Source: Gracilimonas sediminicola (GTDB lineage Bacteria > Bacteroidota > Rhodothermia > Balneolales > Balneolaceae). Taken from it: 64,000 nt of DNA. Under the pieces are notes generated by a model that was not told the origin of the DNA, made no database searches, and worked only from the letters and a program-made list of their open reading frames with translations. The stretch lies in the NCBI RefSeq assembly GCF_024320785.1, contig NZ_JANDBC010000001.1:1928001-1992000 (forward strand), given 5' to 3'. Positions 24,328-35,235 of the stretch are shown one piece after another. The first letter of the stretch is position 1; each line of letters starts with the position of its first letter. A program made the position numbers and the translations under genes.

Positions 24328-25995
24328 TCAGGTATTTGAATCCGCCAGGTATTCATGAACATATTTGATGGCCATGGAACCTTCCCCCACAGCAGAGGCC
24401 ACACGATTCATGGCTCCGGCACGCACATCACCGGCCGCAAAAATGCCGGGTGAGCAAGTTTCTAACAGAAATGGCTGCCGGTCCAGCTTCCATGTTTTTC
24501 TAAAATTATCGTATCGCTGCAGATCTCTCCCGGTTTCAATAAATCCGCGTTTACTTTTAATAACATCCGCTTTGATCCAGTCGGTATAGGGCCGGGCACC
24601 GATAAAAATGAAGAGTCCATCTGCCTCTACATCTCTGTGGTCGTCTTTCTGATTATTGAACAACACCAACTTCTCAAGCTTTCCATCACCACAGGCTTCT
24701 TCCACTTCGGTGTGGGCTATCACTTCGATGTTTTCCGTATCATTAAGCTGATGTATAAGGTACGAAGACATGCTTGAAACCAACGATTCTCCGCGAATCA
24801 AAATCTTCACGTCTTTTGCAAAAGTGGATAAATACATAGCAGCTTGCCCTGCTGAGTTCCCACCGCCTACGATATAAACCTGCTTATCCTTGAAAGCATG
24901 GGCTTCCGTCATGGCTGCCCCATAATAAATCCCGGCGCCCGTAAAATCGGAAATCCCTTTACTTTCCAGCTTTCGGTAATTAACCCCGGTGGTAACCACC
25001 ACCGCCTTGGCATTAATCTCAGAACCGTCCGCCATTTTTACGGTTTTGTATTGATCGGTGAGTGAGATGTCAACCACTTCCTGCGGAGATAAAAACTCAA
25101 CGCCGAAACGTTTCGCCTGGGTGATGGCACGACGGGCTAAATCAGATCCACTCAGTCCTTTTGGGAATCCGAGATAATTTTCGATCCGCGAGCTTGTTCC
25201 CGCCTGCCCGCCCGGCGCCCGCTTTTCGATAAGCAGCGTTTTCAGTCCTTCCGAACCTCCGTAAACGGCGGCGGCAAGTCCGGCAGGACCGGCACCAATG
25301 ATAGCTACGTCATAAATGGTTTCATTTGCGGTGGGATTTCTTCCCAGCTTCTCAGCAATGGTTTTAGGGGAGGGTTCGGTAAAATGACTTCCATCTTCAA
25401 AAAAGATAGCAGGGAGGTCGTTGGTATTGATTTCGTAATCATCCAGAAGTTCCCGGGCTTTATCATTGGTTTCGATATCGAGCCAGCGGTAGGGAATCAG
25501 ATTTCCGGAAAGGTAGTCTTTGACAGCATGAGACTTTGGCGAGTACTGATAGCCCACCAGTCGTATTCCATGAAATTCCGGTTTGAAATCAGCCAGCCAT
25601 TCATCCAGTTGGTCATCCAGAACGGGGTAAAGTTTTTCTTCGGGAGGATCCCAGGGTTTCAATAAATAATAATCCAGCTGCACATCGTTGATGGCTTTGA
25701 TAGCGGCTTCCATATCGGAATAAGCAGTCAGTAACACGCGCTTGGCATCGGGGTAGGTTTGCCTGGCCTTTTCCAGAAACTCGACTCCCATCATCTCCGG
25801 CATGCGCTGATCGCTGAGAAAGAGTGCCACTGTTTCACCCTTTTTCTTCAGCTCAGGCAACGTCTCCAGTGCTTCTCTGCAAGAATCAGTACTCATAATC
25901 CGATACTCACTGCGGTATTTGTTGCGCAAATCTCTGGTCACCGCACGAAGGACCTGGGCATCATCATCAATTACAAAAATTATTGGTTTACTCAT
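24328..25995 (-). CDS. Response regulator fused to a glutaredoxin-like and a thioredoxin-reductase-like flavoprotein
   Basis: A 555-residue three-part fusion. Residues 1-130: CheY-like receiver with DDD (10-12), phospho-acceptor D62 in LSDQRMP, T90 and K113 in LLKPWD. Residues about 140-215: glutaredoxin-like fold, but the redox motif is YSPKSH, so both cysteines are missing. Residues about 225-550: FAD/NADPH oxidoreductase with GAGPAG (234-239), PGGQAG, GGGNSAGQAA (377-386) and FAAGDVR. The position of the thioredoxin reductase CATC motif reads YYGAAMTEA, with no cysteines. It is therefore not a thioredoxin reductase; it likely transfers electrons from NAD(P)H through FAD to another acceptor, gated by phosphorylation from the kinase encoded just upstream. 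Start ATG at 25995. Confidence 0.9.
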   Translation of the reverse strand: MSKPIIFVIDDDAQVLRAVTRDLRNKYRSEYRIMSTDSCREALETLPELKKKGETVALFLSDQRMPEMMGVEFLEKARQTYPDAKRVLLTAYSDMEAAIKAINDVQLDYYLLKPWDPPEEKLYPVLDDQLDEWLADFKPEFHGIRLVGYQYSPKSHAVKDYLSGNLIPYRWLDIETNDKARELLDDYEINTNDLPAIFFEDGSHFTEPSPKTIAEKLGRNPTANETIYDVAIIGAGPAGLAAAVYGGSEGLKTLLIEKRAPGGQAGTSSRIENYLGFPKGLSGSDLARRAITQAKRFGVEFLSPQEVVDISLTDQYKTVKMADGSEINAKAVVVTTGVNYRKLESKGISDFTGAGIYYGAAMTEAHAFKDKQVYIVGGGNSAGQAAMYLSTFAKDVKILIRGESLVSSMSSYLIHQLNDTENIEVIAHTEVEEACGDGKLEKLVLFNNQKDDHRDVEADGLFIFIGARPYTDWIKADVIKSKRGFIETGRDLQRYDNFRKTWKLDRQPFLLETCSPGIFAAGDVRAGAMNRVASAVGEGSMAIKYVHEYLADSNT

Positions 25996-26002
25996 TCCTG
26001 AA

Positions 26003-26098
26003 GGAATTAAAAATTTAAAATTTAAAATTAAGGACGAGGCTATAATTAAATGCTGAGGATAATTTTAAATTTTTCATCTTTAATTTTGAATTATTTAA
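26003..26098. repeat. AT-rich inverted repeat between kinase and response-regulator genes
   Basis: Left arm of AATTAAAAATTTAAAATTT type (26005-26031) and right arm AATTTTAAATTTTTCATC... (26061-26095). Shares the TTCAAAATNAAAGATGAAAA motif (minus strand) with the repeat at 29849-29914. The kinase stop codon lies inside its edge. Confidence 0.6.
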
Positions 26099-27476
26099 GT
26101 GGAAAACAGAGTTCGAAGATGGTTTCGCCGGGTTTGGATTGTACGGTGATGGTGCCGTTGTGCTTATTTACAATTTTACGGACAAAATCGAGACCGAGGC
26201 CGGTTCCTTCTCCTATACCTTTGGTTGTAAAAAAAGGATCGAAAATTTTGGTATGAATGTCCTCCGGGATGCCGGCCCCATTGTCTTTAAAATAAATTCT
26301 AAGGTCTCCGTTTTTGGCCTCAGCAGAAATCTCGATACGCCCTTCTTTCTCTATCGCATCAACGGCGTTGTCGAGCAGGTTCATCCATACCTGATTCAAT
26401 TCACTCACAAACCCACAAAACTCCGGTAAATCATCGGGTATGTTTAATTCTACCGACACCTGTTTTTCTTTTATTTGATGATTTAAAATGCTGAGCGTGC
26501 TTTTCAGTAACTTTTCCAGTTCAACCGGCTGCTTCTCATTTGCCTGATCCATATGCGAATAGGTTTTCACCGAAGAAACAAGGTCAGAAATGCGACGTGA
26601 TGCATCCTCAACCTCAGCAATCATCTTTTCGGTAACAAACACATCTTCAATCCATTTAAAAACCGGAGTGAGCATGGCTTCATCACCGATGTCTTTGATT
26701 TGTTCAAGAGACTCTACATTGAACCCGTGTTCAGCAAATGTTTCTGCCAGTTCATAGGTTTCTTCAATGCCGTGGTCTTCCATCCAATCAGCCAGGTCAT
26801 CTTCAAGCGATGTTCGTTCCATCAAAGAAAGGGAGGGAATCTCAGCATTCAGCTTATTGAAAATCACCTTGTTTATGGCATCCACTTGCTCTTCTGAAAG
26901 TTTGAGCTCCATCATGCCTTTAAACTTTTCGGGTTTGGCGTGAAGGTTTGCTTTCAGGGAAGTAGCGCTTCTGACCATAGCCGAAGCGGGATTATTCAGC
27001 TCATGGGCTAAACCGGCAGATAGTTTACCCAGGGCCAGTAATTTCTCGTTTTGTTGCTGCTGGGTAGTGAAATGACGAATACGATCGGAGAGGGCATGTA
27101 CAAAAGATTCGATTAGCTGATAATGAGAAGCGATTTCAGGGAATTTATCTTCGTGGGTGATTAAAACAGTCGATTCCTCTATTACAGTTACATAAGCCAG
27201 AGACGATTGAAGTCTTGAAAAGGGAAGCTTTCCGGTGAGGTCGCCGGCTTCAAAAGTATCGATAACGGTAAATTGGTCTCCACGCTTAAGCTGCAGCCGA
27301 ATGTTTCCTTCAAGCAGCAGGTACATCTTGTTGATTTCGTCACCGGGCTTTACAATCACCTCATCCGGTTGGTAAGTGCACACTTCCGACAACCGAACAT
27401 ACTCCCGAATCTCGTCTTCCGGAACCTCGGAAAACTGAGGAAACGATTGAATACCTTTTACGATATAGTCGTCCAT
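26091..27476 (-). CDS. Histidine kinase with N-terminal cyclic-nucleotide-binding domain
   Basis: Soluble sensor kinase of 461 residues with no membrane segment. Residues 15-130 form a cNMP-binding/CRP-like beta-roll (KPGDEINKMYLLLEGNIRL). The dimerisation and phospho-acceptor helix has H158 in LAHELNNP. The ATPase domain has the N box NQVWMNLLDNAVDAI, DNGAGIPED and GEGTGLGLDFV. The start codon shares one base with the stop of the UBP zinc-finger gene (TGATG), so they are translationally coupled. The cognate regulator is almost surely the fused receiver at 24328. The signal bound by the beta-roll is unknown. Confidence 0.92.
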   Translation of the reverse strand: MDDYIVKGIQSFPQFSEVPEDEIREYVRLSEVCTYQPDEVIVKPGDEINKMYLLLEGNIRLQLKRGDQFTVIDTFEAGDLTGKLPFSRLQSSLAYVTVIEESTVLITHEDKFPEIASHYQLIESFVHALSDRIRHFTTQQQQNEKLLALGKLSAGLAHELNNPASAMVRSATSLKANLHAKPEKFKGMMELKLSEEQVDAINKVIFNKLNAEIPSLSLMERTSLEDDLADWMEDHGIEETYELAETFAEHGFNVESLEQIKDIGDEAMLTPVFKWIEDVFVTEKMIAEVEDASRRISDLVSSVKTYSHMDQANEKQPVELEKLLKSTLSILNHQIKEKQVSVELNIPDDLPEFCGFVSELNQVWMNLLDNAVDAIEKEGRIEISAEAKNGDLRIYFKDNGAGIPEDIHTKIFDPFFTTKGIGEGTGLGLDFVRKIVNKHNGTITVQSKPGETIFELCFPLK

Positions 27477-27733
27477 CAGGGCCTCATGTATAGTTCATCG
27501 ATATAACACCAGCGCCATTCTTCACCGGGTTCGACAGAGCGGATGATGGGATGATGAGATTCCTCGAAATGAGCTCGGGCGTGTTTGTTTGGGGATGAAT
27601 CGCAGCAGCCCACATAGCCACAAATCATGCACATGCGCAGGTGAACCCACGAACTGCCCTGCTCTACACAATCCGGGCACACATCTTCCGAGGTATTTGT
27701 AACTTTGATCGTATTTTTGTGGGAGCAAGCCAT
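27476..27733 (-). CDS. UBP-type zinc-finger protein
   Basis: An 85-residue protein that is just a ZnF-UBP domain: C3, H5, C19, C22, C35, C38, C43, H51, H55 and H61 follow the CxH...CxxC...CxxC...C...HxxxH...H spacing. In eukaryotes this fold binds the C-terminal GlyGly of ubiquitin. The bacterial proteins have no ubiquitin and their ligand is unknown; a C-terminal peptide of a partner is a reasonable guess. It lies between the DsbA-like and kinase genes in a tight operon (10-base gap, 1-base overlap), so it is probably part of the same redox or signalling device. Confidence 0.88.
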   Translation of the reverse strand: MACSHKNTIKVTNTSEDVCPDCVEQGSSWVHLRMCMICGYVGCCDSSPNKHARAHFEESHHPIIRSVEPGEEWRWCYIDELYMRP

Positions 27734-27743
27734 AAGCGTTTAT

Positions 27744-28268
27744 TTAGTTCAGGAAAGTATCAACAAAAGCCTTCAATTGATTATAATCCAATTCACCGGA
27801 ATATCGCTCCCCGTTCACAAAAAAAGTAGGAGTGTCGTCAACGCCACTTTTAACACCTCCCCGGAAATCAGCGGTAACCCGACCGGCAAATTCATTGGTC
27901 GCCAGGTTTACCTTAAAGCGATATAGATCGAGCCCGATATCTTCCGCAAATTCAAGAATTCTGGTTTCACTCAGCGTTCGGTTGTGTTTAAAAAGCAGGT
28001 TGTGCATCTCCCAGAACCGATCCTGAGCACCGGCGCACAAAGCCGCCTCAGCTGCTAACTGAGCATTCGGGTGTTTTTTGCGAAGCGGGAAATTTCGGAA
28101 TACAAACCTCAGCTCCTGCTTGTACTTCTTCAGCAACATCTGCGAAAAACGATATCCCAGCCGGCTGTATGGGCACTCATAGTCACCGTATTCGAGCAGT
28201 GTGAGTTTTGCATCCGGGTTACCCAGCATATAGTCATCCTCTGATATTTCAGCATATAAATCGCTCAT
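27744..28268 (-). CDS. DsbA-family thioredoxin-fold protein with a CPYS active site
   Basis: Cytoplasmic (no signal peptide) DsbA-like protein of 174 residues. The active-site motif is CPYS (C32 to S35), so only the first cysteine is present, and a cis-proline loop is seen in DDTPTFFVNG. Single-cysteine versions usually work by a monothiol or glutathione mechanism (reductase, isomerase or transferase) rather than disulfide formation. Related proteins are often fused or next to NhaA/Kef-type antiporters. Its start overlaps the stop of the antiporter gene by four bases, so they are coupled. Confidence 0.88.
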   Translation of the reverse strand: MSDLYAEISEDDYMLGNPDAKLTLLEYGDYECPYSRLGYRFSQMLLKKYKQELRFVFRNFPLRKKHPNAQLAAEAALCAGAQDRFWEMHNLLFKHNRTLSETRILEFAEDIGLDLYRFKVNLATNEFAGRVTADFRGGVKSGVDDTPTFFVNGERYSGELDYNQLKAFVDTFLN

Positions 28269-29833
28269 CGGTCAAAAGTCAGGTTAAGCGAAGTGCTTTC
28301 GGATGGGCCTTCTTCGAGGCTGAGCTCAGCTAATTTTTTTCCGGCCTGAGACATCGGCAGACAAACAGCTGTAGCCCCGGCTTCTCTAAGGGCTTTATGT
28401 TCGTCACTTCGCATGGTCAGGGCTACAACATCTCCCTTATAGCCATATTGGCGGAGCAATTTTGTGGCTTCCACTTTAGTGCCCGGGTTTGGGATAGCCA
28501 GCATGATGGCTTTAATATTTTCAAGATTGATGTTCTCCCATAATTCGGGATCGCGGGCATCACCATACACTACCCGTCTTTTGCTTTGAATATTTTCTTC
28601 CAGCTTGGCCGGATCCGCATCCATACCAATTACTTTGTGGCCGTAATATTTCATGTACTCATAAGCGGATGAACCGGCCTGCCCCATTCCAACCACCAGG
28701 TAATTCGCACTACCAAGTGAGACAACCTGCTGCCCCGGATGCTTGACATCCCGTTCGTACTTCAGCAGGGAAAGCTCAAACCGACTCCAAAGCGCATTCA
28801 CATTTGCAGAAAGCGGAGCGTTGATGGCATAAGAAACCGCCACAAGCAAGGCAAAGCTGGTAACAACGGTTTCCGGGATGAAGCCACCAGAAACGGCTAC
28901 AATTCCGGCTATGAGGGTGAACTCGCTGTAAGAAGTGAGCGTGGTGGTGACCAGAAAGGAGTTTCTGGATCGCAGTTTGAATCCCACCAGCAAAAAGAAG
29001 TAGAGGATGGATTTGATGGGGAGTAAGGCTAAAATCACCACGCAGAATATCAGTTCGTTATAACCCGGTAATCCTGCAAGGCCCACTTCCAGAAAGAATC
29101 CAACCAGAAAGGCCTCTTTGAGTCCCCAAAGTTTGTGGGTGAGTTCATCAGCAAGTTTATGGCCGGAAAGCAGGGCTCCTGCCACTAAAGCTCCCAGTTC
29201 GGATGAAAGTCCCAATACTTCAAAAAGAGCACCGCCGCCGATGGCTAAAATTAAGGCGAATAAAAGCTGAAGTTCATCATGTCCGCTCGCAATTAGGGCT
29301 TTAATTAACAGCGGGCGGAAAAGGGGCAGAGCAAGCAGAGCCAAGCCCCATATGGAAGGCACGCCGCCACCAGTTAAAGCCAGCAAAGCGATAGCTACAA
29401 TATCCTGCAAAATCAAAATACCGATAGAGACACGGGCGTGGAAAGCGCCGAGTTCGCCTCGGTCTTCCAGGGATTTGGCGGCCAGCACCGTACTCGAAAA
29501 GCCCAAAAGGATACCAATTATGACAGCCTCAACAAGCTCGTATCCGAACAGGGAGGCAATCAGTCCGAATACACCTGCGGTTAAGGCAAGATGGATGCCA
29601 CCCGCGCCCAACACTTCCGGTCGTAGAATACTTTTAAGCCGCAGGTGAAGACCTACCGTAAACAGTAGAAATAAAACCCCGAGATGCCCGATCTCGTGAA
29701 GGGTGTCGGTGGTTTCAAATCCGAAAAGAGAGAGAATAATACCGGCACCGAGAAAACCGACCAGTGGCGGCAACTTAAGTCGCGATACAGCCATCCCCAG
29801 AACATAGGCTGCTGCCAGCCAAAGAATTTCCAT
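28265..29833 (-). CDS. KefB/CPA2-type cation:proton antiporter with TrkA-N domain
   Basis: Membrane antiporter of 522 residues. About 12 hydrophobic helices (residues 1-350) include the CPA2-type stretch GFSSTVLAAKSLEDRGELGAF. They are followed by a cytosolic NAD(H)-binding TrkA-N domain (about 365-490) with VVGMGQAGSSAYEYM and MDADPAK. There is no TrkA-C domain. In E. coli, KefB/KefC release K+ when glutathione adducts of electrophiles bind; the neighbouring dioxygenase, esterase and thiol genes fit such a role here. It is the first gene of a run coupled to the DsbA-like, UBP and kinase genes. Confidence 0.9.
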   Translation of the reverse strand: MEILWLAAAYVLGMAVSRLKLPPLVGFLGAGIILSLFGFETTDTLHEIGHLGVLFLLFTVGLHLRLKSILRPEVLGAGGIHLALTAGVFGLIASLFGYELVEAVIIGILLGFSSTVLAAKSLEDRGELGAFHARVSIGILILQDIVAIALLALTGGGVPSIWGLALLALPLFRPLLIKALIASGHDELQLLFALILAIGGGALFEVLGLSSELGALVAGALLSGHKLADELTHKLWGLKEAFLVGFFLEVGLAGLPGYNELIFCVVILALLPIKSILYFFLLVGFKLRSRNSFLVTTTLTSYSEFTLIAGIVAVSGGFIPETVVTSFALLVAVSYAINAPLSANVNALWSRFELSLLKYERDVKHPGQQVVSLGSANYLVVGMGQAGSSAYEYMKYYGHKVIGMDADPAKLEENIQSKRRVVYGDARDPELWENINLENIKAIMLAIPNPGTKVEATKLLRQYGYKGDVVALTMRSDEHKALREAGATAVCLPMSQAGKKLAELSLEEGPSESTSLNLTFDR

Positions 29834-29848
29834 GTTTGTGAATTAAAG

Positions 29849-29914
29849 ATTCAAAATGAAAAATTAAAAATAGGTGTCCAACCAATTTTTAATTTTTCAT
29901 CTTTCATTTTGAAT
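29849..29914. repeat. AT-rich inverted repeat between esterase and antiporter genes
   Basis: Left arm ATTCAAAATGAAAAATTAAA... (29849-29871) and right arm ATTTTTAATTTTTCATC... (29885-29914) with a 7-base insertion. It supplies the last codons (Asn-Ser-Lys) and stop of the esterase. Related to 26003-26098. Confidence 0.65.
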
Positions 29915-30572
29915 TTAATAAGGCATTAATATGCTTGATCTCATCTTCATTCACAAGGTGTCCCATGCCCGGGTATAGTTTTTTGGTGACATCTGCGCCC
30001 AACTGCTTTAGAAGTTCTTCGGTCTCATTAACGCGTTCTTTGGGGATATGTGGATCAACATCACTGCAGCCTAAAAAAGCCGGGGTTTTTTGAAGGTCGC
30101 CTGTATATTGGTCGAAATCGACAGATTCGCCGATCACACCTCCACTCAATGCAATCAAGCCGGCATACTTTGCAGGGTGACGCGCTATAAACTCAGAAGC
30201 AAGGCATGCACCCTGAGAAAATCCCAGAAGAAAGATTCGGTCTTTTGAGATGCCATCCGACTCGAGTTCCTCAATGATGTCATGAATTTTCTGAAGGCCG
30301 GAAGACAGGCCGGGCTCGTTCCTGTCGGTTGGGGCCATAAAGGAATAAGGATACCAGGTATGCCCGTTTGCCTGAGGTGCCCGATAGGTGATTTTTTTAT
30401 CGGTTTCGAATGCGGAACTCAGGTCGAGTATGCTGGGAGCGCTGGCTCCACGGCCGTGAATCATAATCATGGCGTAATCGGCCTCTGAAGAAGGAACTCC
30501 GGTTTCAGCTACGAGTGTGTTTTGATGAGGACCTTCGAAATTTGTGTCTTCTGTTACGCGGAATAAACTCAT
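29904..30572 (-). CDS. Phospholipase/carboxylesterase-like alpha/beta hydrolase (MhqD-like)
   Basis: Cytosolic esterase of about 222 residues from the ATG at 30572. An in-frame ATG at 30608 would add 12 residues but directly abuts a 20-bp hairpin and is less likely. Visible: oxyanion HGRGA, nucleophile elbow GFSQGAC, an aspartate in GCSDVDPHIP and the histidine in GMGHLVNED. With the ring-cleaving dioxygenase just upstream it reproduces the MhqO-MhqD pair of Bacillus, induced by catechols and quinones. That parallel, not the sequence alone, is the basis for the name. Confidence 0.85.
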   Translation of the reverse strand: MSLFRVTEDTNFEGPHQNTLVAETGVPSSEADYAMIMIHGRGASAPSILDLSSAFETDKKITYRAPQANGHTWYPYSFMAPTDRNEPGLSSGLQKIHDIIEELESDGISKDRIFLLGFSQGACLASEFIARHPAKYAGLIALSGGVIGESVDFDQYTGDLQKTPAFLGCSDVDPHIPKERVNETEELLKQLGADVTKKLYPGMGHLVNEDEIKHINALLNSK

Positions 30573-30608
30573 GAATGCAATTGTAATTGGATTGGACTTG
30601 GTAATCAT

Positions 30609-30652
30609 TTTCTAACTTAGAGACACAAAATCTTGTGTCTCTAAGTTAGAAA
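30609..30652. repeat. Perfect 20-bp hairpin filling the dioxygenase-esterase gap
   Basis: TTTCTAACTTAGAGACACAA (30609-30628), loop AATC, then its exact reverse complement (30633-30652). It shares GACRCAAAATCTTGTG with 10464-10506. No T run follows in the direction of transcription, so it is not a standard terminator. Confidence 0.8.
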
Positions 30653-30656
30653 TGTG

Positions 30657-31604
30657 TTAGGATGTTGCCTTTGAGGGTACCCTAATCCCGGGCAGGATTT
30701 CTTCAATCCGGTCCCGTTTGTTTTCTAACCACGGGGGAAGAATCAGGTGTTCTCCCAGGTGTTCAAATTCTTCGTCTACGGTGTAACCGGGATCATCAGA
30801 AGCCATCTCAAAAAGCACGCCGGCCGGAACTCTGTAGTACACAGAATTAAACCAGTGACGGTCGATAATTTGAGTTGGGTGAAGCCCGCGCTTATCTACT
30901 TGTTCGCGAAGTTGATCCAGTTCTTCCTTATTCTCAGTCCGGAAAGCGATATGGTGGACGATACCCCGTCCATTTTGTCCGTGAATAGGAGCATCAGCGA
31001 CTTCGATAATCACCGAATGCCCAATTTCAGCATCGGTTTGATATAAATATAGGTTGCCTTCATTCGCCACTTGCTCGAACTCGAATAACTCATTAAGGAG
31101 CTTTTCGGTGTGCTCACGCTCAGTCAGGTACATGCGCGCTCCCCAGAATCCCTGAATGGTTTTGTCGAAGTGAACGATATAATCCACATTCTCCACTTTT
31201 TCTTTTGCCTGTCCTTCAAACACCAGATCCAGTTCCATGCCGTCGGGATCGCTGAAACGAAGTGCGGTTCTTCCGAAAATATCTTCCATTGTATAATCAA
31301 CACCGTGATCAGTGAGGCGAGATTCCCAGTAATCTTGTGTTCCTTCAGGAACCTGTAGTGCCACATTCACAACTTCACCGGTTCCGGCTTTGCCCTGAAC
31401 GGCATTCGGCCATGGGAAGAAGGTTAAACTTGAACCCGGATTGGCAGACTGATTTCCATAAAACAAATGATAGGTACCGGGGTCATCCTGATTCACCGAT
31501 TTCTTTACCAGCCGCATCCCCAAAACCTGCGTATAAAATTCGGCATTGCGCTGAGCATCTCCGGCCAATGCTGTAATGTGATGTATTCCTTTCTGATGTT
31601 TCAT
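30657..31604 (-). CDS. Ring-cleaving dioxygenase, VOC family (MhqO-like)
   Basis: Two-domain vicinal-oxygen-chelate protein of 315 residues, of the family annotated as ring-cleaving dioxygenase (MhqA/MhqO). Each half opens with a metal-ligand region: GIHHITALAGDAQRNAEFY at residues 6-24 and GIVHHIAFRTENKEEL near 210. An acidic ligand lies in GVLFEMASDDPGY near 275. The family is tied to resistance to hydroquinone-type compounds. It is the first gene of the minus-strand cluster ending at 24328. Confidence 0.9.
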   Translation of the reverse strand: MKHQKGIHHITALAGDAQRNAEFYTQVLGMRLVKKSVNQDDPGTYHLFYGNQSANPGSSLTFFPWPNAVQGKAGTGEVVNVALQVPEGTQDYWESRLTDHGVDYTMEDIFGRTALRFSDPDGMELDLVFEGQAKEKVENVDYIVHFDKTIQGFWGARMYLTEREHTEKLLNELFEFEQVANEGNLYLYQTDAEIGHSVIIEVADAPIHGQNGRGIVHHIAFRTENKEELDQLREQVDKRGLHPTQIIDRHWFNSVYYRVPAGVLFEMASDDPGYTVDEEFEHLGEHLILPPWLENKRDRIEEILPGIRVPSKATS

Positions 31605-32707: not shown

Positions 32708-33952
32708 ATGAACATCTACGCCATCATTATTCTGGCAACCATTGCCATCGATTTTATTCTTGATATCACTTCCAACTACCTGAACCTGAAATCTCTATCA
32801 AAAGAACTTCCTGAAGAATTTGAAGGAGTATATGATGAAGATACCTACGCCAAATCCCAGGAGTACACCAAAGTAAGAACCAAGTTTGGCTTTCTGACGG
32901 GCGGTTTTGACCTGGCACTGGTATTGGGGTTCTGGTTCTCGGGCGGATTCAACTGGCTGGATCAGATTGTTCGGGCCTGGGGGTTTGGAGAGCTGGTAAC
33001 GGGTTTGACCTATATCGGGATTTTACTGCTGGCTAAAACCATCCTGAACCTTCCATTCAGTATTTATTCTACTTTTGTGATTGAAGAGCGATTCGGCTTC
33101 AACAAAACCACCCCGAAAACTTTTGTGTTGGATATGGTGAAAGGTCTGGGGCTTGGATTATTAATCGGGACCCCTCTGCTTGCCGGAATTCTCTGGTTCT
33201 TTATGTATGCCGGAGATTTGGCCTGGCTGTATGCCTGGGGGGCGGTCACTGCCTTTACGTTGATTATGCAATATGTGGCCCCGACCTGGATTATGCCGCT
33301 GTTCAATAAATTCACCCCACTTGAAGAAGGGGAACTTAGAACCGCTATTGAAGAATATACCGAGAAGGTGAATTTCCCACTACAGGGGTTGTTTGTGATT
33401 GACGGTTCCCGTCGCTCCAGTAAATCGAACGCCTTTTTTACCGGCTTCGGGAAGAATAAAAGAGTAGGGCTTTATGATACGCTGGTCGAGAATCACACCG
33501 TACAAGAATTAGTGGCAGTTTTGGCTCACGAAATCGGGCATTACAAGAAAAAGCACATTATAAAAGGGATGATAACCAGCGTTGCCCAAACAGGAGTGCT
33601 TTTCTACTTGCTTTCGGTGTTTCTAAACGCCCAGGGGTTGTTTGATGCGTTTTATATGGAGCAGATGTCGGTTTATGCCGGACTCATCTTTTTTGGAATG
33701 TTGTATGCTCCCATTGATATGATTTTATCTGTATTCATGCAAATGATTTCCCGCCGGCACGAATTTGAAGCCGATGCTTTTGCAGCTGAAACAACCGGGG
33801 AGCCCGAAGATATGATTTCAACGCTTAAGCAGCTTTCGAAGGACAACCTGAGCAATTTAACCCCTCACTCGTTCTACGTATTTCTGAATTATTCCCATCC
33901 GCCGGTTCTGGAGCGAATTCGGGCAATCAGAAAAGATAATCAGGAAAGGTGA
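32708..33952 (+). CDS. M48 family zinc metallopeptidase (Ste24/CAAX protease 1-like)
   Basis: Integral-membrane zinc protease of 414 residues. About seven hydrophobic helices; HEIGH at 274-278 is the zinc site and FEADAFA near 355 gives the third ligand. The layout and the N-terminal extension match Ste24-type M48A enzymes rather than HtpX. Probably removes misfolded or tail-anchored membrane proteins. Its end overlaps the convergent kinase gene by 13 bases. Confidence 0.92.
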   Translation: MNIYAIIILATIAIDFILDITSNYLNLKSLSKELPEEFEGVYDEDTYAKSQEYTKVRTKFGFLTGGFDLALVLGFWFSGGFNWLDQIVRAWGFGELVTGLTYIGILLLAKTILNLPFSIYSTFVIEERFGFNKTTPKTFVLDMVKGLGLGLLIGTPLLAGILWFFMYAGDLAWLYAWGAVTAFTLIMQYVAPTWIMPLFNKFTPLEEGELRTAIEEYTEKVNFPLQGLFVIDGSRRSSKSNAFFTGFGKNKRVGLYDTLVENHTVQELVAVLAHEIGHYKKKHIIKGMITSVAQTGVLFYLLSVFLNAQGLFDAFYMEQMSVYAGLIFFGMLYAPIDMILSVFMQMISRRHEFEADAFAAETTGEPEDMISTLKQLSKDNLSNLTPHSFYVFLNYSHPPVLERIRAIRKDNQER

Positions 33953-35235
33953 CTCCCATTTACATCTGAGAGGCTGAATGACAACCGGAAGAGTACGCCG
34001 GGTTCCGTTTTTCGGGATTTATATTCATAGTCTGCTTCCAGCTGATGCGCCAGCGTTTGGATCAGCACCATCCCGAGAGAATCTTTTGTTTCCGGATCGG
34101 CATCATCAGGAAAGCCAACCCCGTTGTCTGTTATCTGTAGGGTAATTTGTTGGTTATTCTTTTGAAGCTGAACGGAAATCAGTCCTTTTTGCATATCCGA
34201 AAACGCGTGCTTGATGGAGTTGGTCAGCACTTCATTCACAATCAAGCAGCAGGGTACCGCCTGATTAATGTTCAGGTTGATGGGCTCAAGATTGAATTTA
34301 GTCTCAATTTTAGAATGATCATCCATGGTTTCGAGAATGGCATGAACCAGGTTTTTTAAGCCGGCATCAAAATCCATATTTGAGAAACTGTTGGACTGGT
34401 AAAGTTGCTCGTGAATATTGGCCATCGATTTAATGCGAAGAGTACTGTCTATCAATTTTTTTTGGATTCGTTCATCGGTTTCTTTGAACGACTGCATCTG
34501 AAGCATTCCCGATATTACTGCCAGGTTGTTTTTTACCCGATGGTGAATTTCAGCCAGAAGGGTATTTTTCTCGTCCAGCGAATTCTCCAGCTCCCCCTGA
34601 TGGCTCAACAGGTTTAGCTTCAGTTCTTTCTGGGATTCAATGGTTTCCTGAAGTCCGCTAAACAGCATGGGCATAAATACCACGGCGACTATACTCAACA
34701 GAATAGAATTAGCCGAAATAGCAAGCCAGGAGGCCACCTGATAGCTTTCACGAAGTGGATAATCGACAAGGCGGTTGTGAATTAATAACGCCTGTACCAC
34801 ACAAATAAGGATATTGATGAAAATGGTAAGCACCCCCGCGCGGGTAGGCAAAATCAGCAGGGAGAAAACCGTGGCTCCGAACAAATAAGTAAGCCCGGCC
34901 CCAAGTTCACCCATAAAGAAAATAAGGATGGCAGCTACCGAGTAAATAAGGGTAAGAAAAAGATATTTACGTTGATTGATCCGGAGTCCGCTGTATAACG
35001 ATATGGTTGTAATTGCTACCCCAAAAAAGATATACGCCACGGTCAACGACTGGATGCCAAGCGCAAATACCACAATGGAGGAGGGAATCAAAACAATGAT
35101 CCCCAGCGGGAAAAGATAGATGATGATGGTGGTAAAGAGCTTGTTTCTCCAATACTCCAATCCATCGGACCGCGTAAGGCTGCCCATGCAGTTCTTGCGA
35201 ACCCTCAGTTTATAATTCTCCCAAAGCTTTGCCAT
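33940..35235 (-). CDS. Membrane sensor kinase of the HisKA_2 class
   Basis: A 431-residue kinase with about six transmembrane helices (residues 35-195). The HisKA_2 phospho-acceptor segment is LLAEIHHRVKNNLAVISGML (H231/H232), followed by a HATPase domain with the N box NEVLTNSIKHAF and DNGVGFPDD. No extracytoplasmic sensor domain is evident, so it may sense the membrane itself. No response regulator is adjacent. Convergent with the M48 protease. Confidence 0.9.
   Translation of the reverse strand: MAKLWENYKLRVRKNCMGSLTRSDGLEYWRNKLFTTIIIYLFPLGIIVLIPSSIVVFALGIQSLTVAYIFFGVAITTISLYSGLRINQRKYLFLTLIYSVAAILIFFMGELGAGLTYLFGATVFSLLILPTRAGVLTIFINILICVVQALLIHNRLVDYPLRESYQVASWLAISANSILLSIVAVVFMPMLFSGLQETIESQKELKLNLLSHQGELENSLDEKNTLLAEIHHRVKNNLAVISGMLQMQSFKETDERIQKKLIDSTLRIKSMANIHEQLYQSNSFSNMDFDAGLKNLVHAILETMDDHSKIETKFNLEPINLNINQAVPCCLIVNEVLTNSIKHAFSDMQKGLISVQLQKNNQQITLQITDNGVGFPDDADPETKDSLGMVLIQTLAHQLEADYEYKSRKTEPGVLFRLSFSLSDVNGSHLS

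Follow-up and report, generated by a model that had tools for sequence, protein, structure and literature searches.

A cNMP-domain histidine kinase and a receiver-flavoprotein without thiol relays: a probable two-component switch with an enzyme-type output

We analyzed a 64,000-nucleotide stretch of the Gracilimonas sediminicola genome (contig NZ_JANDBC010000001.1, positions 1,928,001 to 1,992,000; hereafter the window), focusing on seven genes at window positions 24328 to 31604 that a reading of the DNA letters (the sequence-only reading) had proposed to form one system for sensing and answering electrophiles or quinones. Two of these genes encode HK, a 461-amino-acid histidine kinase with a cNMP-like domain (26091..27476, minus strand), and FUS, a 555-amino-acid protein (24328..25995, minus strand) in which a receiver is joined to a degenerate glutaredoxin (Grx)-like domain and a flavoprotein that resembles low-molecular-weight (low-Mr) thioredoxin reductase (TrxR) and lacks its CxxC. 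We conclude, with a probability of roughly 60%, that HK and FUS constitute a two-component switch with an enzyme-type (flavoprotein) output. The features behind this conclusion are read from sequence: the domains, the loss of both CxxC motifs, the invariant histidine and aspartate, the co-occurrence of the two genes, a swap of sensor domains among related proteins and, for the neighboring genes, the fusion of an antiporter to a UBP zinc finger.

We examined the pairing of kinase and fusion in 296 Bacteroidota genomes. HK (E ≤ 1e-60) was found in 40 of the 41 genomes with a full-length fusion, defined as a match aligned from the receiver into the reductase (a tally of 60 includes shorter matches), and in 0 of the 255 genomes without (Fisher 7e-49). 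Outside the family of G. sediminicola, the counts were 23 of 24 fusion genomes and 0 of 236 others. The sole fusion genome missing HK at this cut-off (G086; G and L numbers are our labels for genomes and loci) does carry a weaker kinase match immediately upstream of the fusion (L097). Within the fetched loci, some of which were shorter than the intended flank due to contig ends, HK scored at least 250 bits in 48 of 50 receiver-type (REC-type) loci, drawn from 40 Bacteroidota genomes and 10 plasmid records (11 such records matched 80% or more of the query length). The two REC-type loci without an adjoining HK (L075 and L084) carry HK elsewhere in the genome. Thus, HK and the fusion do co-occur in other genomes, as the sequence-only reading would predict. 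Nothing can be drawn from a Bacillota sample (0 of 149), for which there was no positive control.

The pair also occurs outside Bacteroidota, in Cyanobacteriota, Actinomycetota, Deinococcota, and Betaproteobacteria, with HK confirmed by profile in plasmid records of Nostoc, Gloeothece, Caballeronia, Tsukamurella, Deinococcus, and Streptomyces. HK lies upstream of the fusion in most Bacteroidota loci and downstream in the cyanobacterial and actinomycete records; an antiporter-UBP gene stands between the two in L093 and L095, and in L094 the two lie on opposite strands. (Large negative gene gaps in high-GC records are artifacts of longest-open-reading-frame calling, which extends starts too far.) Because the pair stays together through these rearrangements of gene order, HK and the fusion appear to be functionally linked. 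Six plasmid records annotate the fusion as an FAD-dependent oxidoreductase and the kinase as an ATP-binding protein. We found no common third partner: besides HK, every gene family seen within 5 kb was confined to at most 5 of the 34 HK-FUS loci outside the family. In three loci (L111, L113, and L136), the fusion is flanked on both sides by kinases of the same type, one of them about 2.4 kb away in L113. In all three loci from Nostoc and Gloeothece plasmids (L109, L110, and L135), genes for GlgX and an AGE-family epimerase precede the receiver-flavoprotein, and a gene for "low temperature requirement protein A" lies near it in the two Nostoc records.

HK was assigned from Pfam matches, alignment, and co-occurrence. 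Its HATPase_c domain matched at 2.9e-26, while HisKA scored 20.5 bits, under the cut-off of 26.9. H158, N366, N370, and G400 are kept in all 49 aligned kinases. Between the phospho-acceptor region and the ATPase domain lies a long stretch without a Pfam model (amino acids ~190-280). The cNMP-like domain (amino acids 34-117) carries a cNMP-type loop, G82-x-L84-P85-x-S87-R88, in which G82 and L84 are each conserved in 43, P85 in 42, and S87 and R88 in 39 of the 49 kinases. The motif of cAMP receptor domains is a phosphate-binding cassette with a conserved Glu and Arg. The position after G82, which we take to be where the Glu of a cAMP pocket would be expected, is variable among the 49 sequences.

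The receiver of FUS (amino acids ~1-125; 25621..25995; Pfam Response_reg 5.2e-16) retains D10, D11, D62, T90, and K113 in 51 of 51 aligned fusions. D62 (codon 25810-25812) is the phospho-acceptor aspartate of this receiver, as had been proposed. Downstream of it is a domain that the sequence-only reading overlooked, a degenerate glutaredoxin-like domain at amino acids ~140-216 (25348..25578), where S152-P-K-S155 takes the place of CPxC. The first cysteine place is serine in all 51 fusions; the second is serine in 44 and cysteine in one. A profile of this domain matches both Grx domains of two Grx-Grx-TrxR fusions (33 and 36 bits in L103; 32 and 40 bits in L104), which Pfam calls Glutaredoxin and in which CxxC is intact.

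The TrxR-like FAD/NAD(P)H domain (amino acids ~222-553; 24337..25332) gives FUS a score of 239.4 bits with TIGR01292, the low-Mr thioredoxin reductase model, under its cut-off of 343.45. The best Protein Data Bank (PDB) matches of FUS are TrxRs, with entries named ferredoxin-NADP+ oxidoreductase (FNR) weaker. The two places of the TrxR CxxC are G359 and T363 in FUS, and cysteine occurs at either place in 0 of 51 fusions; E364, the acid that follows the second place, where low-Mr TrxRs have their catalytic Asp, is invariant (51/51). FUS was described as cysteine-less; this is right for CxxC but not for cysteine as such, since Cys39, Cys435, and Cys514 are present, none of them part of a CxxC. 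The FAD/NAD(P) motifs are kept (G234, G236, G239, G262, G263, Q264, and G377 in 51/51; D523 in 50/51). The NADPH-type HRRxxxR is only partly kept (R401 in 50/51; arginine or lysine at the second place in 13/51 each; the last arginine in 1/51), so FUS may prefer either NADPH or NADH. A scan of genome contigs with the single protein gave 24 loci, of which L038 alone matched over the full length and the other 23 only within residues 1-189.

By alignment, both thiol relays of a Grx-TrxR ancestor have been lost in the fusions, while the nucleotide-binding glycines and E364 have been retained. Because both relays are lost, FUS would be unable to reduce disulfides in the usual way. The genome carries a separate TrxR with CATC (L002). 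The Grx-Grx-TrxR fusions noted above (L103:8697-10109 and L104:8984-10441) have the domain order of FUS; unlike FUS, they have CxxC at three places each and no N-terminal receiver. Both resemble a likely ancestor of the thiol-free form. In a phylogenetic tree, L103 and L104 fell together with the genome's own TrxR on the far side of a supported branch (100/99) from the CxxC-less form.

A sister group of flavoproteins carries a different sensor. Among 299 Pseudomonadota genomes there were 27 matches in 25 genomes (E ≤ 1e-80), all of which start at residue ≥141 and lack the receiver. In 25 loci, the same kind of Grx-TrxR core has a cNMP-type N-terminal domain in place of the receiver, an assignment made at a weak threshold (>10 bits against either a kinase profile or one built from two sequences). 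These loci comprise 19 of 20 fetched from the 27 Pseudomonadota matches, L101, L102, and four plasmid records; seven "other" loci were excluded from the comparison. Cysteine at the CxxC places occurs in 0 of 25, as in the REC-type fusions. "cNMP-binding domain-containing thioredoxin-disulfide reductase", the NCBI product name of such proteins, shares with FUS the glutaredoxin-like and TrxR-like core and an N-terminal regulatory domain. Unlike FUS, with its receiver and HK, they have no HK-type kinase within any of the 25 fetched loci (best kinase score, 92.8 bits). The receiver form itself is present on two Burkholderiaceae plasmids. On a plain reading, the flavoprotein would serve as output either way, under the direct control of a cNMP-type domain in one form and via kinase and receiver in the other.

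DNA and second messengers are the usual targets of response regulators. The sequence-only reading proposed that this kinase controls a flavoenzyme directly rather than transcription, and the sequence comparisons indicate that HK very probably does so: the two genes co-occur (40/41 versus 0/255) and adjoin in several gene orders, H158 and D62 are invariant, and the cNMP-type sister flavoproteins do without HK.

The other five genes, all on the minus strand, encode, in order of distance from HK, a UBP zinc finger protein (UBP; 85 amino acids; 27476..27733; PF02148 8.8e-14, PDB 2ida 95.8 bits), a DsbA-like protein with CPYS (C32) replacing CPxC (174 amino acids; 27744..28268; PF13462 3.1e-23), a CPA2 cation/H+ antiporter with a TrkA_N (RCK) domain (KEF; 522 amino acids; 28265..29833; identified by Pfam and by alignment to KefC), an Abhydrolase_2 carboxylesterase (EST; 234 amino acids; 29904..30608; Pfam), and an MhqO-like VOC ring-cleaving dioxygenase (VOC; 315 amino acids; 30657..31604). 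The arrangement is more than a chance one, since it was seen again in 16 further genomes of the family: all 16 have KEF and HK, 14 have UBP, 13 each have VOC and EST, and 11 have the DsbA-like gene. All seven genes are together in eight of these loci; the attachment of VOC and EST is loose. In the fetched HK-FUS loci outside the family, VOC was found in 0 of 34 and EST as one weak match (L079). Because HK-FUS and VOC-EST-KEF-DsbA-UBP each occur without the other, gene content indicates that the cluster is two modules joined in this family, an HK-FUS core and a set of VOC, EST, KEF, DsbA-like protein, and UBP. The idea of a single seven-gene system therefore stands insofar as the genes recur together within the family, but they are not an obligate unit.

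Several observations connect UBP to the antiporter and to the flavoproteins. The ten conserved cysteines and histidines of the finger are present in 32 to 35 of 35 sequences, and the window UBP aligns with the WCY part of HDAC6, which we take to be part of its pocket. UBP (E ≤ 1e-15) was found in 24 of the 41 Bacteroidota fusion genomes versus 6 of 255 others, and near 22 of 50 REC-type and 9 of 25 cNMP-type loci; in Tsukamurella and Streptomyces fungicidicus, its gene comes after those of the fusion and the kinase. In four loci, UBP is fused to the C-terminus of a CPA2-type antiporter that has an RCK domain: L091, L093, and L095, which are beside HK-FUS, and L147, whose genome shows no full-length receiver fusion (for L095, the fusion was called from profile and sequence only). 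Because the two are fused in these loci, the antiporter-UBP link is, as judged from the predicted proteins, physical in some genomes.

At L147 (6971-10471; G085), the antiporter-UBP fusion gene is immediately followed by genes for a Zn_protease (PF05618) and for RimK, an enzyme that appends residues to protein C-termini. Eukaryotic UBP fingers bind free C-termini; a shared C-terminus theme is possible at this locus. On plasmids of Streptomyces angustmyceticus and Rhodococcus sp. PD04 (L139 and L142), UBP and a cNMP-type TrxR-like gene end a DnaK-GrpE-DnaJ-CbpM-ClpB-TrxA row. The window DsbA-like protein lacks the CPxC redox pair of the DsbA oxidase; it and 12 cluster orthologues have CPYS or CPFS, and a 13th aligned sequence, L140 from a cyanobacterial plasmid, keeps CPNC. 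In L098 (G187), a second KEF-DsbA-UBP set lies near a receiver-less Grx-TrxR gene.

The sequence-only reading had leaned on KefB and KefC, which classically release K+ on electrophile-glutathione signals. The accessible parts of two papers give R409, Q412, R416, R498, and R516, with N551 in the C-terminal helix, as the glutathione ligands of KefC (PMC11150392, PMC10224563). In KEF, the first five read R409Q, Q412S, R416E, R498M, and R516L. The alignment stops at KefC residue 531 with 15 residues remaining, leaving N551 without a counterpart and KEF without a KefC-type C-terminal region. At the AMP site, D429 and D449 are kept and H430, D472, and F441 are not; the equivalents of the ion-site residues T127 and D156 are retained. 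KEF scored far below both curated KefB/KefC cut-offs (PRK03562, 135.5 versus 752 bits; PRK03659, 117.5 versus 804 bits). The genome has the bacillithiol protein BshA above cut-off, and a best GshB score of 74.8 versus a cut-off of 299 bits in an assembly that is 97% complete; GshA and GshF were not searched. Because KEF lacks both the KefC ligand residues and the C-terminal region, and the genome shows BshA but no GshB above cut-off, electrophile-glutathione gating of KEF is unlikely, and the analogy does not carry over to this cluster in that form.

The sequence-only reading had taken the dioxygenase and an MhqD-like esterase for the pair that Bacillus induces against quinones and catechols. 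VOC is clearly MhqO-like and matches PDB 3oaj with 236 bits (6.9e-69 over residues 3-304), but EST scored 20.5 bits with the curated MhqD model against a cut-off of 325, and we rejected an MhqD identity for it. Since VOC is MhqO-like, an electrophile role of the cluster by a non-glutathione route is possible, and electrophile sensing by the cluster would be plausible. The dioxygenase, present in none of the 34 outside-family loci, is the only direct pointer to an electrophile or quinone signal.

Parts of this cluster resemble known systems. KefC-KefF and KefB-KefG, as described in sections of PMC11150392 and PMC10224563, likewise place a CPA2 antiporter with RCK beside a gene for a soluble flavoprotein; KefF is an FMN quinone reductase, whereas the cluster has a TrxR-type flavoprotein plus a kinase and a UBP finger. 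In the tLST/LHR oxidative stress module trxGI-kefBGI, part of a stress island, a thioredoxin-fold protein adjoins a KefB-like antiporter, as here; the tLST1 gene list, in the section of the paper that gives it, has no kinase, receiver, or flavoprotein, unlike the window cluster (PMC8290217). When KEF was searched against plasmid records, there were four matches at 1e-20, and the two whose surroundings we viewed had no tLST genes; the presence of tLST plasmids in the collection was unchecked. A tLST KefB as nearest relative of KEF is thus unsupported by the plasmid search, which made no comparison with a tLST sequence. TrxR-type FNRs use the low-Mr TrxR fold for non-thiol electron transfer, a likeness to FUS; unlike FUS, they have no receiver or glutaredoxin-like domain noted in the available portions of PMC9137726.

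What follows is the mechanism that we infer, including the phosphotransfer, the electron acceptor, the antiporter gating, and the stress signal. Soluble HK would detect an intracellular signal through its N-terminal cNMP-like domain and autophosphorylate at H158, and the phosphate would move to D62 of the FUS receiver. Phosphorylation of D62 would alter the state of the TrxR-derived FAD/NAD(P)H domain. Lacking both thiol relays, FUS would most likely pass electrons from NAD(P)H to a non-thiol acceptor (a quinone, O2, or a protein) or signal NAD(P)H status by conformation. Within the family, the switch would be wired to the antiporter module, that is, to the KefB-like antiporter, the single-cysteine DsbA-like protein, and the UBP finger. 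Our preferred, unproved link is that FUS acts as a phosphorylation-controlled, KefF-like ancillary subunit that gates cation/H+ exchange, with UBP as the docking piece.

There are precedents for this link in the portions of the literature available: full KefC activity requires the flavoprotein KefF, a quinone reductase (PMC10224563, PMC11150392), and TrxR-fold flavoenzymes perform non-thiol electron transfer, quinones included (PMC9137726). Joining the two precedents for this cluster is our own inference, by analogy. The fullest version of the idea is that of a widespread signaling device: a thiol-free flavoprotein, set by the kinase through receiver phosphorylation and docked by UBP, would gate the antiporter according to NAD(P)H state and so, in bacteria that make bacillithiol, stand in for Kef control without glutathione. 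This strikes us as rather doubtful.

A number of observations weigh against a two-component switch with flavoprotein output or against its wiring to the antiporter. The genome searches scored roughly the best four to five first-look candidates per genome, so an absence in the co-occurrence counts is not final; since related genomes also lack independence, the Fisher p-values are a guide only. At the window locus, HK and FUS are separated by a 95-base gap. Structure predictions (AlphaFold) were unusable, with mean pLDDT of 44.3 with two sequences and 37.2 with one. In the tree, the branch that has all REC-type flavoproteins on one side is weakly supported (72/14). As to the wiring, G042 has VOC-EST-KEF-DsbA-UBP and G286 has VOC-KEF-UBP, both without kinase or receiver fusion. 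Of the 34 HK-FUS loci outside the family, 30 showed no KEF-like antiporter within ~7-9 kb, and one of the remaining four (L092) has it on the opposite strand; antiporter gating would thus not be the general job of the pair. The KefF-type link is weakened because so many HK-fusion loci have no such antiporter nearby, and UBP is near only 8 of these 34 loci. The ligand site of KEF, moreover, does not resemble that of KefC.

The flavoprotein may also be a redox sensor that feeds back on the receiver instead of an output, with its NAD(P)H/FAD state setting the lifetime of the receiver phosphate, so that the pair, tuned by redox state, would act on another regulator as phosphate sink or timer. Kept FAD and nucleotide motifs in a protein with no known catalytic thiols would suit a degenerate sensor, and L111, L113, and L136 each have two HK-type kinases around the fusion. 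Against this, no common further output gene shows within 5 kb (at most 5 of 34 outside-family loci share a family other than HK, and the small shared families were not all identified), and the sister protein has its sensor-type domain at the same N-terminal place, which fits an N-terminal input and a flavoprotein output. We consider the sensor arrangement unlikely. An even poorer case can be made for FUS as a housekeeping thioredoxin reductase in an accidental neighborhood: its TrxR fold and the FAD-dependent oxidoreductase annotation in six records speak for it, but with cysteine at the CxxC places in none of 51 fusions, a separate TrxR with CATC in the genome, and co-occurrence with HK far beyond chance, we rejected this as highly improbable. 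PADLOC gave weak generic-domain matches only, for FUS and HK alone, and we likewise rejected a known defense system.

Two broader alternatives concern what the cluster is for. It could be one seven-gene electrophile/quinone defense in which HK-FUS would be both the sensor and a quinone reductase, the antiporter would acidify the cytosol, and VOC and EST would be the effectors. The MhqO-like VOC and the presence of VOC and EST in 13 of 16 family loci speak for this, as do statements in the accessible text of two papers that a TrxR-type FNR reduces quinones (PMC9137726) and that KefF is a quinone reductase (PMC10224563); set against them are the near absence of VOC and EST from outside-family HK-FUS loci (0/34, and the weak match in L079), an esterase far under the MhqD cut-off, and the unsupported glutathione gating, and we hold this defense to be possible but doubtful. 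The same tentative standing applies to a general redox/proteostasis stress module, in which UBP and the CxxC-less flavoprotein would be a conserved unit docked to varied stress machines, the antiporter here and a DnaK-ClpB-Trx operon in Actinomycetota. The chaperone rows closed by a cNMP-type flavoprotein and UBP in S. angustmyceticus and Rhodococcus sp. PD04 point in this direction, together with UBP after fusion and kinase in Tsukamurella and S. fungicidicus and at 9 of 25 cNMP-type loci. Against it, at E ≤ 1e-15, UBP was not found in 17 of the 41 fusion genomes, and no more than 22 of the 50 REC-type loci have it close by.

At the window locus, all seven minus-strand open reading frames proposed by the sequence-only reading are present in a row, and domain and structure-database matches bear out the gene families it named. 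From antiporter to kinase the genes are coupled as it described, by a 4-base overlap (KEF/DsbA-like), a 10-base gap (DsbA-like/UBP), and a 1-base overlap (UBP/HK). The Pfam calls were Response_reg and Pyr_redox_2 for FUS; cNMP_binding, weak HisKA, and HATPase_c for HK; zf-UBP for UBP; Thioredoxin_4/DSBA for the DsbA-like protein; Na_H_Exchanger and TrkA_N for KEF; Abhydrolase_2 for EST; and Glyoxalase, in two stretches, for VOC. The cluster is flanked by an MgtC-like gene on the plus strand and, downstream, by a 665-amino-acid open reading frame. A separate MASE11-HisKA_2 kinase gene lies at 33940-35235 (minus strand), ~2.3 kb past the cluster. We draw no inference from promoter-like sites (7 observed versus 11.2 expected by shuffling) or from terminator-like sites (16 versus 8.4, sd 3.1, expected), the latter being scattered within genes on both strands.

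In the open-licence PubMed Central (PMC) literature we found neither the receiver-flavoprotein nor its kinase nor the cluster described, in agreement with the earlier statement that the seven-gene assembly was not known as a described system. A term search of PMC8945050, on Deinococcus thiol reductases, gave nothing on such fusions in the text proper. HK-FUS is of a known kind, a two-component system, with an output for which we found no description. "Fused response regulator/thioredoxin-disulfide reductase" is presumably an NCBI product name.

A kinase paired one-to-one with a receiver-flavoprotein in five phyla would represent a class of phosphorylation-controlled redox proteins whose function we have not found described. 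The sensor swap, with a cNMP domain either on the flavoprotein or on a kinase that works with a receiver, is a natural experiment on the exchange of input domains. The antiporter-UBP fusions, in turn, offer a testable partner for bacterial UBP fingers.

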